Assembly (NCBI GenBank): GCA_011525845.1
Contig: WYBP01000013.1
Location: 1-64,000, forward strand
DNA from: Gemmatimonadaceae bacterium
GTDB taxonomy: Bacteria > Gemmatimonadota > Gemmatimonadetes > Gemmatimonadales > Gemmatimonadaceae
Length of the DNA stretch: 64,000 nucleotides
Direction of reading: 5' to 3'
The translations under genes and the position numbers were made by a program. This document shows positions 5,292 through 52,469 of this stretch, one piece after another; within the stretch, counting starts at the first letter, position 1, and every line of letters begins with the position of its first letter. Under the pieces are notes generated by a model. That model made no database searches. It was given only the letters and a program-made list of their open reading frames with translations, and was not told where the DNA came from.

Positions 5292-5340
5292 GGGCAGATG
5301 TGAGAAGTGAGATGGGAGATGTGAGAGCTCTCACATCTGG
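5292..5340. repeat. Heptad-repeat intergenic element, copy 1 (fusA/tuf)
   Basis: Begins directly after the fusA stop. A purine-rich arm of 7-bp units (AGATGTG, AGAAGTG, AGATGGG, AGATGTG) runs into a short complementary arm. Positions 5317-5338 are a perfect 22-bp palindrome, AGATGTGAGAG followed by its reverse complement. It is the shortest two-armed copy and has no GC-rich core hairpin. Confidence 0.7.
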
Positions 5341-5387
5341 GTAGGACGACCGGCAGGACATTCTTCAACCACCTCAGGAATCTTCTT

Positions 5388-6590
5388 ATGGCCAAGGCAA
5401 AGTTCGAGCGGACGAAGCCGCACGTGAACGTGGGCACCATCGGCCACGTCGACCACGGCAAGACGACCACCACGGCCGCCCTGACGAAGCTCTCGGCGGA
5501 CAAGGGGTACGGCACCAAGTACATCGCCTATGACGAGGTCGCGAAGGCGTCCGCGTCGCAGGGACGTCGCGATGCCACCAAGATCCTCACGATCGCGACC
5601 TCGCACGTCGAGTACGAGACCGCGAACCGCCACTACGCGCACGTCGACTGCCCCGGGCACGCCGACTACGTGAAGAACATGATCACGGGTGCCGCGCAGA
5701 TGGACGGCGCGATCCTCGTGGTGTCGGCCGTGGACGGCCCGATGCCGCAGACCCGCGAGCACATCCTCCTGGCCCGCCAGGTGAACGTGCCGAAGATCGT
5801 CGTCTTCCTGAACAAGTGCGACCTCGTGGACGACGCCGAGCTCCTCGACCTCGTCGAGCTCGAGGTCCGTGAGCTCCTCTCCAAGTACGGGTACGACGGC
5901 GACAACGCGCCGGTGATCCGTGGCGCCGCGATCAAGGCGATCGAGGGCGAGGAGAAGTGGGTGAAGGCGATGCAGGAGCTCTACGACGCGCTCGACACCT
6001 ACATCCCGGAGCCGGTGCGCGAAGTGGACAAGCCCTTCCTCCTCCCGGTCGAGGACGTCTTCTCGATCACGGGGCGCGGCACGGTGGCCACGGGGCGCAT
6101 CGAGCGCGGCAAGTGCAAGGTGGGCGAGGAACTCGAGTTCGTGGGCTACAACTCGAACAAGAAGACCGTCGTCACGGGCGTCGAGATGTTCCGCAAGCTC
6201 CTCGACGAGGGCTTCGCCGGCGACAACGTCGGCCTCCTCCTCCGCGGCGTGGACAAGAACGAGATCGAGCGCGGCATGGTCATCGCCAAGCCCGGCTCGA
6301 TCAAGCCGCACACGAAGTTCGAGGCCGAGGTGTACGTCCTCACGAAGGAAGAGGGCGGCCGCCACACCCCGTTCTTCAAGGGCTACCGCCCGCAGTTCTA
6401 CTTCCGCACGACGGACGTGACGGGCGCGATCGAGTTGCCGGCCGGCACCGAGATGGTGATGCCGGGCGACAACATCAGCATGACGATCGAGCTGATCATC
6501 CCGATCGCGATGGAGGCGCAGCTGCGCTTCGCCATCCGCGAGGGTGGCCGCACGGTCGGCGCGGGTGTCGTGACCAAGATCCTCGCCTAA
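5388..6590 (+). CDS. tuf: Elongation factor Tu
   Basis: A 400-aa GTPase delivering aminoacyl-tRNA to the ribosome. It shows G1 [11 protein letters not shown] at residues 18-28, [11 protein letters not shown] (G3) and NKCD (G4), and the three-domain length is standard. Only this tuf copy is in the window. It lies between fusA and rpsJ, the usual junction of the str and S10 operons. A weak Shine-Dalgarno (AGGAA) sits 11 nt before the ATG. Confidence 0.98.
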
Positions 6591-6598
6591 CAACGAAC

Positions 6599-6636
6599 GG
6601 GGCGGGCCGCCGGGGATCCCCCGGGCGGTCCGCCCC
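6599..6636 (+). terminator. GC-rich hairpin between tuf and rpsJ
   Basis: GGGGCGGGCCGCC pairs with GGCGGTCCGCCCC around a GGGGATCCCCC centre, giving a long and nearly perfect stem. No T-tract follows, so it is more likely an attenuator, processing site or mRNA-stabilising stem that sets tuf versus rpsJ levels than a full terminator. Confidence 0.45.
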
Positions 6637-6648
6637 AGTGGAGACGCA

Positions 6649-51465: not shown

Positions 51466-51468
51466 CGG

Positions 51469-51497
51469 TTGCCCGGGTGTGGTCCAGCGGGCAATTT
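51469..51497 (+). promoter_or_regulatory. Candidate promoter/operator of the lipoprotein gene
   Basis: TTGCCC (51469-51474), 17 bp and CAATTT (51492-51497) then CC; the -35 equals that of purA. TTGCCC and GGGCAA (51489-51494) also form an inverted repeat over the same stretch, and a perfect TGCTAGCA palindrome lies at 51503-51510. The region is shared with the divergent ABC transporter start. Confidence 0.4.
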
Positions 51498-51534
51498 CCC
51501 TCTGCTAGCAGTCGTCCCCACCACGGAGATCCCC

Positions 51535-52347
51535 ATGCTCTCGTATTCTATCCGCCGCTCCCTCGCGCCGCTCTTCGCGGTCGCGCTCGTCGCCGCCGCA
51601 TGCGGCGGCGGCAACGATGCCGCCACGGACGAGGCCGCGCGCGCGATCGAGCTCGCGCCGCGCGACTCGATGTCGCCGATGAACGACGCCCCGGCCGCCA
51701 CCCCCGACACCAAGGCGACCACGCCGGCGCCGGCCCCGGCGCCCGCCAAGATGGCCGCCACGCCCGCGCCGCGTCCGGCCGCGGCCGCGCCCGCCGCCGC
51801 CACGCCCTCGCGCGCGAGCTCCGGCGTGATCGCCAGCGGCACGGCCTTCGCCGTCAGCAACGGCATGAAGATCTGCACCAACACGCACAAGACCGGTGAC
51901 GAGTTCACCACCACGCTCGGCGCCGACGTCATGGGCTCGAACGGCGCGAGGATCCCGGCCGGCGCGACCGTCACCCTCAAGGTGACCGAGTCGGCCATCA
52001 GCAAGAACTCCAAGGACAACTGGAAGCTCGCGTTCGACGTGGTCTCCGTGACGGTGAATGGCGAGACGATGCCGGTGACCGGTGACGTGACGAAGGTCGA
52101 GACCATCGAGGCGGTCCGCTCGCAGAGCACGGGCCAGCAGGTCGGGAAGGTCGCGACGGGCGCCGCGGTCGGCGCGGTCGCGGGCAAGCTGCTCGGCAAG
52201 AGCGGGAAGGCGACGGTGGTCGGCGCGGCGGTCGGTGCCGCGGCGGGCGGCGCGGTCGCGGCCGGGACGGCGGACTACGAAGGGTGCCTGGCCGAGAAGG
52301 GTGCGATCACGGTGACCCTCACCGCGCCGCTCACGATCAGGATGTGA
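51535..52347 (+). CDS. Glycine-zipper lipoprotein
   Basis: A 270-aa protein. A signal peptide ends in a lipobox with Cys23 (LVAAAC). A long Ala/Pro-rich linker (about 40-100) leads to a beta-rich domain (GTAFAVSNGMKICTN; IPAGATVTLKVTES) and then a glycine-zipper segment (TGAAVGAVAGKLLGK; VVGAAVGAAAGGAVAAG) that may enter the membrane. Function unknown. GGAG lies 6 nt before ATG 51535. The end runs into a heptad-repeat element. Confidence 0.8.
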   Translation: MLSYSIRRSLAPLFAVALVAAACGGGNDAATDEAARAIELAPRDSMSPMNDAPAATPDTKATTPAPAPAPAKMAATPAPRPAAAAPAAATPSRASSGVIASGTAFAVSNGMKICTNTHKTGDEFTTTLGADVMGSNGARIPAGATVTLKVTESAISKNSKDNWKLAFDVVSVTVNGETMPVTGDVTKVETIEAVRSQSTGQQVGKVATGAAVGAVAGKLLGKSGKATVVGAAVGAAAGGAVAAGTADYEGCLAEKGAITVTLTAPLTIRM

Positions 52348-52469
52348 GAACTGCAGATGGGAGATGGGAGATGTGAGATGTGAGGTGAAACACGCGCGGG
52401 GGGAAGCTCACTGAGCCTCCCCCCGCGCTTCTCACATCTCCCATCTCCCATCTCACCTCTGCCGTTCAG
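52348..52469. repeat. Heptad-repeat intergenic element, copy 7 (lipoprotein/ggt)
   Basis: The most complete copy. Left arm (about 52352-52387) of heptads GATGGGA, GATGGGA, GATGTGA, GATGTGA. Core hairpin at 52394-52428 (GCGCGGGGGGA stem, one mismatch in 17 bp). Right arm (about 52431-52469) with the inverted heptads, ending CTGCCGTTCA in the stop codon of the convergent ggt gene. Confidence 0.8.
52394..52428. terminator. Core hairpin of repeat copy 7
   Basis: A 17-bp stem with one mismatch, loop of a single base as drawn (realistically 3-5 nt), and GC-rich. No T-tract. It lies between convergent genes and is nested in the repeat arms, so it can end transcripts from either side. Confidence 0.55.

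Follow-up and report, generated by a model that had tools for sequence, protein, structure and literature searches.

The question raised by this locus is what kind of element marks so many gene borders in it, and whether the repeats found there act, spread or merely accumulate. The window is a 64-kb stretch of a 3.58 Mb Gemmatimonadota genome (G000), in which an initial annotation had described seven copies of an element built from 7-bp units near AGRKGKG. All seven were recovered at the coordinates listed below. Every one of the 26 exact matches to two tandem AGRKGKG units in the window (16 on the + strand and 10 on the − strand) lies inside these copies, against a chance expectation of 0.06 (mean of 50 first-order Markov simulations). 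The arm layout was also reproduced, with inverted arms in copies 2, 3, 4 and 7, a short one in copy 1, and single arms in copies 5 and 6.

Copy 1, 5292–5338, + strand: fusA-tuf junction, with four heptads (5296–5323) immediately 3' of the fusA stop and a short inverted arm next to them; −17.5 kcal/mol, z −3.5.
Copy 2, 6958–7046, both strands: rpsJ-rplC junction, with a + arm (6962–6989) past the rpsJ stop and a − arm (7012–7039) that terminates in CTGCCGTTC at the edge of the rplC leader; −50.5 kcal/mol, z −5.5.
Copy 3, 13944–14052, both strands: rpsN-rpsH junction, with a + arm (13950–13977), a − arm (14026–14046) and two G+C hairpins in the interior; −90.2 kcal/mol, z −11.0.
Copy 4, 19658–19725, both strands: convergent M24 peptidase/FTCD junction, with a + arm (19659–19679) and a − arm (19698–19718) whose heptads contain both stop codons.
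Copy 5, 21231–21265, + strand: single arm (heptads 21238–21265), its outer end 3 nt from the start codon of the FTCD gene on the − strand (ATG as the complement of 21226–21228); no significant fold, z −0.65.
Copy 6, 48795–48836, + strand: single arm 3' of the DsbD_TM gene (strict heptads 48813–48833), with a separate G+C hairpin beyond the arm that reaches about 48882.
Copy 7, 52348–52467, both strands: convergent junction beside the gamma-glutamyltranspeptidase gene, with a + arm (52355–52382), an interior hairpin and a − arm (52433–52460); −91.5 kcal/mol, z −13.3.

The four two-armed copies fold far beyond shuffled sequences (z −5.5 to −13.3). No structured RNA of Rfam 15 scored above its gathering threshold in the window. 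A search for hairpins followed by a T tract between 48000 and 53000 found none (1.2 in shuffled sequences), so classical intrinsic termination lacks support in that region. Two descriptions of the copies hold in part. Placement at stop codons is general, except that copy 5 lies at a start codon and the stops of copy 4 are inside the heptads. Conserved complete ends are a property of the family rather than of each copy: the end joined to heptads, AACGGCAGRKGKGAG, is enriched, but GAACGGCAG alone is not, and there are departures from the complete form in copies 1 and 6 and at the left ends of copies 2 and 4.

The whole genome contains 298 tandem AGRKGKG pairs (135 forward, 163 reverse), compared with 6 for the reversed pattern. 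Arm anatomy was studied in 50 stretches (the window and 49 others, about 208 kb), which cover 233 of the 298 pairs and hold 66 clusters with 103 arms; by proportion, the genome would contain roughly 130 arms. An arm reads about GAACKGC, followed by two to six AGRKGKG heptads and then often AGGAACKGC. It is rich in purines and T with almost no C, and its outer end is GAACKGC-like. Four units are present in 44 of the 103 arms, three in 39, two in 16 and five or six in 4. The inner motif adjoins 34 of 106 arm fragments versus 48 of 732 background windows (p 2e-12). Genome-wide, GAACGGCAG has 74 matches versus 108 in the reversed control, AACGGCAGRKGKGAG is found 27 times exactly among the matches listed, and with at most two mismatches AACGGCAGRKGKGAG has 128 matches versus 37 in the control. 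The pair counts, the end motif and the folds bear out the proposal of a non-coding family that is amplified and dispersed, keeps strictly to a 7-bp period, has conserved outer ends and can form hairpins.

The arms are placed with a clear polarity. In G000 the outer end lies a median of 9 nt from the gene edge and within 25 nt in 81 of 98 cases, versus a median of 82.5 nt and 7 of 96 for the inner end; 5 outer and 7 inner ends of the 103 arms had no flanking call or fell inside a called gene and were dropped. The purine-rich strand runs away from the gene and into the intergenic region, irrespective of ORF orientation. Genes were called with our own codon-usage caller, which placed some starts wrongly (rpsJ, and one gene at 15.5 kb) and missed the gene left of 22138 on the − strand. 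The 81 close outer ends comprise 49 at CDS 3' ends, 23 at CDS 5' ends and 9 at tRNA or tmRNA 3' ends, and in one tRNA cluster an arm follows five of seven tRNAs. A relative, G073, replicates this placement with a different unit, GACGGAD: across 45 arms the outer median is 6 nt, and 38 outer but only 2 inner ends are within 25 nt.

At CDS 3' ends, the heptads supply the stop codon in 12 of the 49 arms. This raises the idea that the arms are three-frame stop cassettes, because with a 7-nt period every reading frame would meet a stop codon. Arrays of other Gemmatimonadota do close more frames than shuffled units (1.42 versus 0.99, 55 arrays), but those of G000 close 1.25 frames versus 1.31 for shuffled bases and close all three in just 8.5% of fragments. 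We disfavour this idea and regard it as extremely improbable.

Facing arms occur at 32 junctions in the sampled G000 stretches, with interiors of 11–98 nt. The genes at these junctions are co-directional in 21, convergent in 8 and divergent in 2, with orientation unassigned in 1. G073 has 17 such junctions. Divergent genes flank 2 of the 48 two-armed junctions of known orientation in the two genomes together, versus 43 of 200 background gaps drawn mostly from other genomes of the genus (p 0.003), and 0 of 17 in G073 alone versus 29 of 117 (p 0.02). The interiors are locus-specific and often form a G+C hairpin of their own. Many other arms have no partner, among them the arms between tRNA genes.

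A view of the inverted hairpin as one locus-specific unit is not supported: partner arms match no better than arms from other junctions. Their likeness is 0.822 versus 0.815 for other junctions in G000 (1463 of 5000 shuffles as high) and 0.938 versus 0.925 in G073. With the register left free, 275 of 3000 re-pairings in G000 were as high, and for duplex energy 64 of 400; best-register p values are about 0.09 in G000, 0.12 in G073 and 0.13 in G395, the closest relative. Locus-specific covariation of arm pairs was not found in fixed-register, free-register, duplex-energy or distinct-junction tests. Within one genome, duplexes of arms from different junctions are as strong as those of true partners. 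Because partners are no more alike than non-partners, pairing comes from the genome-wide unit that they share.

Another candidate explanation is polymerase slippage, which would leave heptameric microsatellites in unconstrained spacers. The accessible text of Rehm et al. (2015, PMC4692102) reports an excess of heptamers among the simple repeats of bacteria and mentions a polymerase-footprint idea, and units within an arm resemble each other (0.857). However, the unit is degenerate and 83 of the 103 arms hold three or four strict units, not the near-perfect unit and broad length variation of a simple-sequence repeat. One unit recurs at dispersed loci with a narrow unit number and shared outer ends, and slippage would also have to produce the gene-edge polarity, the inverted partners and the avoidance of divergent spacers. 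It is disfavoured and appears very unlikely.

The same architecture is present in relatives, often at shared junctions but with other units. Lag-7 arrays number 29 in 20 relatives (366 kb), while lags 4, 5, 10, 11 and 13 give none, lag 6 gives six and lag 8 three; lags 9 and 12, which are codon multiples, give 24 and 28 arrays, as coding repeats predict. The lag-7 arrays listed are all outside called genes. A test that avoids coding DNA uses the 45 nt after stop codons: in 200 spacers of other Gemmatimonadota, agreement is 0.392 at lag 7 and 0.360 at lag 14, versus 0.270–0.302 at other lags. Best-lag winners of at least 0.6 in these spacers are lag 7 in 25, lag 14 in 9, lag 8 in 3 and lag 12 in 1, and 38 spacers of other phyla yielded no such winner. 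GGCAG after the stop is likewise enriched (23 of 200 Gemmatimonadota spacers versus 5 of 200 further downstream, p 0.0006). At the ribosomal-region junctions of copies 1–3, relatives carry arrays of other units; when 11 or more of 14 lag-7 matches are required, these are found in 3 of 8, 5 of 11 and 4 of 10 relatives, so the three sites are common to many, not all, relatives.

Different species carry different amplified units, or dialects, and AGRKGKG is not confined to a single lineage. AGRKGKG pairs (matches/reversed control) number 298/6 in G000, 117/7 in G395, 123/1 in G087, 63/17 in G073 and 0/1 in G004, and the unit is also abundant in other genera (142/10 in G124, 106/1 in G319); the reversed pattern is itself common in some genomes of the phylum (for instance 108 in G241 and 74 in G176). 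GACGGAD, in a set of 22 genomes, reaches 404/0 in G073 and 36/0 in G004, with 0 in G000 and 0–4 elsewhere. GTGAWTC is found at 49/0 in G139 and 0–1 in 11 others. For AGTTGNG (283/192 in G139, 38/2 in G128, 10/0 in G004, 0–2 elsewhere) and TTGGTGD (152/89 in G241, 23/0 in G319, 18/41 in G071, 1 in G305, 0 elsewhere), the reversed control is invalid wherever reversal yields a rotation of the unit itself (AGTTGAG in G139, TTGGTGG in G241 and G071), and the case for them therefore rests on their absence from most other genomes. G139 harbours two unit families at once, AGTTGNG and GTGAWTC. In all ten relatives that offer two or more repeat gaps (two to six each), arms score higher with the gap they belong to than with the others, though the difference is marginal in G128 and G040. 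A replichore bias of GACGGAD in G073 was considered, as the first 109 matches listed are all on the + strand, and was rejected because sampled stretches show both strands.

The claim that no named family has this pattern is right only in part, as the architecture has a precedent. The accessible text on the GGGNATC repeats of Xanthomonas and Nostoc (Rehm et al. 2015, PMC4692102) describes 7-bp units, mostly four per array, with 186 and 183 intergenic repeats per Xanthomonas genome. They lie closer to the 5'-neighbouring ORF (mean 28 nt versus 160 nt), and the G-rich strand is the coding strand 3' of stops or the non-coding strand 5' of starts. There are 70–75 inverted convergent cases and few between divergent ORFs, and most repeats occupy the matching junction in a sister species. 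The Gemmatimonadota arms share with them, as far as that text goes, the length and number of units, the polarity, the distance to the gene edge, the occurrence of inverted cases and the rarity at divergent junctions. They differ in the unit, which is AGRKGKG in G000, other sequences in relatives, and changes between species of one genus. They also differ in the extra outer and inner GAACKGC motif of G000 arms, in their presence at tRNA and tmRNA 3' ends, and in the locus-by-locus rewriting measured here. A search of open-licence papers returned no paper on such repeats in Gemmatimonadota.

Quadruplex formation has been proposed for the GGGNATC repeats (PMC4692102), and G-quadruplex elements could be suspected here as well, with an outward strand that is rich in purines and G, a preference for four units in G000 and a two-tetrad motif (four GG tracts) in 64 of 106 arm fragments. 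Unlike GGGNATC, however, most G000 and all G073 arms lack four GGG tracts (present in 10 of 106 and 0 of 50 fragments), and units such as AGTTGTG or GTGAATC have no GGG tract at all. Since the units differ across species, the quadruplex rationale falls as a general one, and we disfavour it as such, giving it almost no weight.

Two further groups of heptameric repeats share part of the pattern. The STRR sequences of heterocystous cyanobacteria are intergenic, hairpin-capable 7-bp arrays for which a role in transcript stability or coupling has been suggested, with unit sequences, in the accessible account, other than those of the Gemmatimonadota arms (PMC2670836). The TAACTGA repeats of Beggiatoaceae are heptamer arrays in intergenic regions, including some close to genes for ribosomal proteins, with an irregular spread over phyla (PMC4679880); as described in the available part of that paper they have one invariant unit, are direct repeats (one indirect exception) and lie mostly 5' of start codons.

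The comparison with REP and MITE families made in the initial annotation is not supported. REP, BIME and REPIN sequences with their RAYT protein are described, in the part of PMC3733652 available, as extragenic, 3' of genes, in inverted pairs and mostly between co-directional or convergent genes. RAYT (PF01797) gave no match in 13 of 13 genus genomes and was found in 2 of 21 genomes searched overall. The arms are not palindromic and, judged from their sequences and not by a dedicated tag scan, have no GTAG/CGTC tag; being almost without C, G000 arms cannot form the internal, imperfect 20–40 bp palindrome of REP. A classical MITE should leave a target-site duplication, but none of at least 4 nt was found in 33 arm pairings from the 32 G000 junctions (null mean 1.2), with the element end assumed to lie 5–9 nt outside the heptads.

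Comparison of orthologous junctions reveals differences in presence and absence. At copy 4 (junction 19666/19711), the gap is 44 nt in G000, −4 in G073, 2 in L175, 11 in L171 and 20 in G087, and reaches 58 nt in G205 and 69 nt in L172 without clear heptads. At copy 7 (junction 52347/52466), it is 118 nt in G000 versus 4 nt in G073 and 57–215 nt in four others, and in G004 this junction holds that genome's own unit. Nearly empty sites thus exist in relatives at both junctions. Searching the genome and its relatives has therefore brought out further copies, conserved ends and differences in presence and absence; unrelated simple repeats were not what appeared. Many sites also persist. In G395, 27 of 37 stretches align to the 50 sampled G000 stretches and bracket 25 junctions, 23 of which contain strict heptads; the G395 stretches were picked for having heptads, so this is not an unbiased rate, but it indicates that many copies are old.

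These data bear on a selfish short element of a new type, whose arms or arm pairs would be copied by mobile machinery without host function, insertions away from gene edges being purged. The dispersal of one unit genome-wide, the coexistence of several unit families in G139, the nearly empty sites of copies 4 and 7 and the stop codons supplied by heptads all agree with it, while the lack of a RAYT match and of target-site duplications, the locus-specific interiors and the age of many copies speak against it. We consider it rather unlikely.

Little similarity specific to a site survives between orthologous arms of the two genomes. Orthologous arms of G000 and G395 have an identity of 0.799 versus 0.791 when re-paired (1392 of 5000 as high), and 0.835 versus 0.813 in free register (32 of 3000). 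Unit positions 4 and 6 together give 0.766 versus 0.726 (89 of 3000), and position 3 gives 0.606 versus 0.625 (2047 of 3000). A weak vertical signal therefore remains, and the dialect position has been rewritten: at orthologous arms, position 3 is mostly A in G000 (79%) and mostly G in G395 (62%). One orthologous arm, L129, has changed at position 3 alone in each of its four units and retains the odd letters found at other positions. Such a clean change is seen in 1 of 30 orthologous arm pairs, and many others differ at several positions. Orthologous interiors can be aligned at 0.85 (n=6), versus 0.77 for unrelated ones in gapped alignments.

One way to account for this shift is a trans-acting DNA- or RNA-binding protein with drifting specificity, whose sites follow by mutation. 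The position 3 shift and the clean L129 arm would fit such a protein, as would the vertical signal kept at positions 4 and 6 and lost at position 3, the fixed 7-nt phasing and the tight unit number. Against it, coordinated change is clean in that single arm pair, and the model demands repeated, concerted change at more than 100 sites; we think it improbable. Alternatively, a dedicated writing process might maintain one dialect throughout a genome by rewriting arms at fixed gene edges in place from a master unit, through templated copying, conversion or directed editing, a reading that also seems improbable to us. If it were true, orthologous junctions would keep their interiors and swap dialect between sister species, and a system of this kind could also lie behind the GGGNATC and STRR repeats found in other phyla.

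What is observed is a dispersed family with a set placement and polarity, arms able to pair, few divergent junctions, and dialects that differ between species at partly the same junctions. The reading that we favour, with a little less than even confidence, is that of lineage-amplified hairpins acting at transcript ends. Directional arms, in G000 about GAACKGC plus usually three or four AGRKGKG units, are placed at gene edges, and where both edges are armed the transcript could form one long hairpin that encloses the locus-specific interior. The family may spread by copying within the genome, with arms retained vertically at tolerant junctions, and the arms may work at the RNA level where transcription units end, as a 3'-end barrier or in processing or insulation. 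As all arms of a genome share the unit, each right arm is able to pair with every left arm, so pairing would persist without covariation at individual sites while the unit drifts genome-wide.

Some observations run against an action at transcript ends, including the single arms, copy 5 without a fold, the missing covariation and the missing T-tract terminators between 48000 and 53000. The arms close to 5' edges (23 of 98 within 25 nt) are not explained by a role at RNA 3' ends, unless they once faced left arms that have since decayed.

A class of heptad repeats that had been described in Xanthomonas and Nostoc with single units appears widely in the little-studied phylum Gemmatimonadota. Its unit sequences differ between species of one genus and many insertion junctions persist; what is new is this turnover of dialects at sites that are conserved. 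Orthologous junctions with matching interiors and swapped units provide a natural experiment on how such arms spread, how they are rewritten and whether they set transcript ends.

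Heptad arms, the runs of two to six tandem 7-bp units (AGRKGKG in this genome) whose outer end lies at a gene edge, were also seen within tRNA gene clusters on two of the fetched DNA stretches, where they occupy several of the spacers and follow immediately on tRNA 3' ends.

L122:858-1316, cluster of four tRNA genes with heptad arms
L160:493-1470, cluster of seven tRNA genes with heptad arms

One arm stands out in the comparison with the closest relative, G395. All four of its units differ between the two species at position 3 alone, with A in one and G in the other, and odd letters outside this position are retained in both.

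L129:1025-1131, heptad arm; orthologous counterpart in G395, stretch L301

At the rpsJ-rplC junction of two relatives (L183 and L063), the arrays, as judged by eye, resemble period 8 rather than 7.

Conserved leaders precede two ribosomal protein genes of the window.

7052-7117, leader preceding rplC, GTCC(TCC/AAC)GG...CCGCGACT
14119-14167, leader preceding rpsH, TTCCTAMAGGTCCGGC..GCCGGAWACCAKAGGAG

The core of the rplC leader is present in 32 of 45 loci, and its closing stem of eight pairs is paired in 244 of 256 cells, with both sides changed in three pairs. An Rfam search of the window returned no matches. This leader is a candidate ribosomal-protein leader RNA. The rpsH leader, with its core in 21 of 38 loci and nine pairs (183/184 cells paired; both sides changed in two pairs), is likewise a candidate leader RNA.
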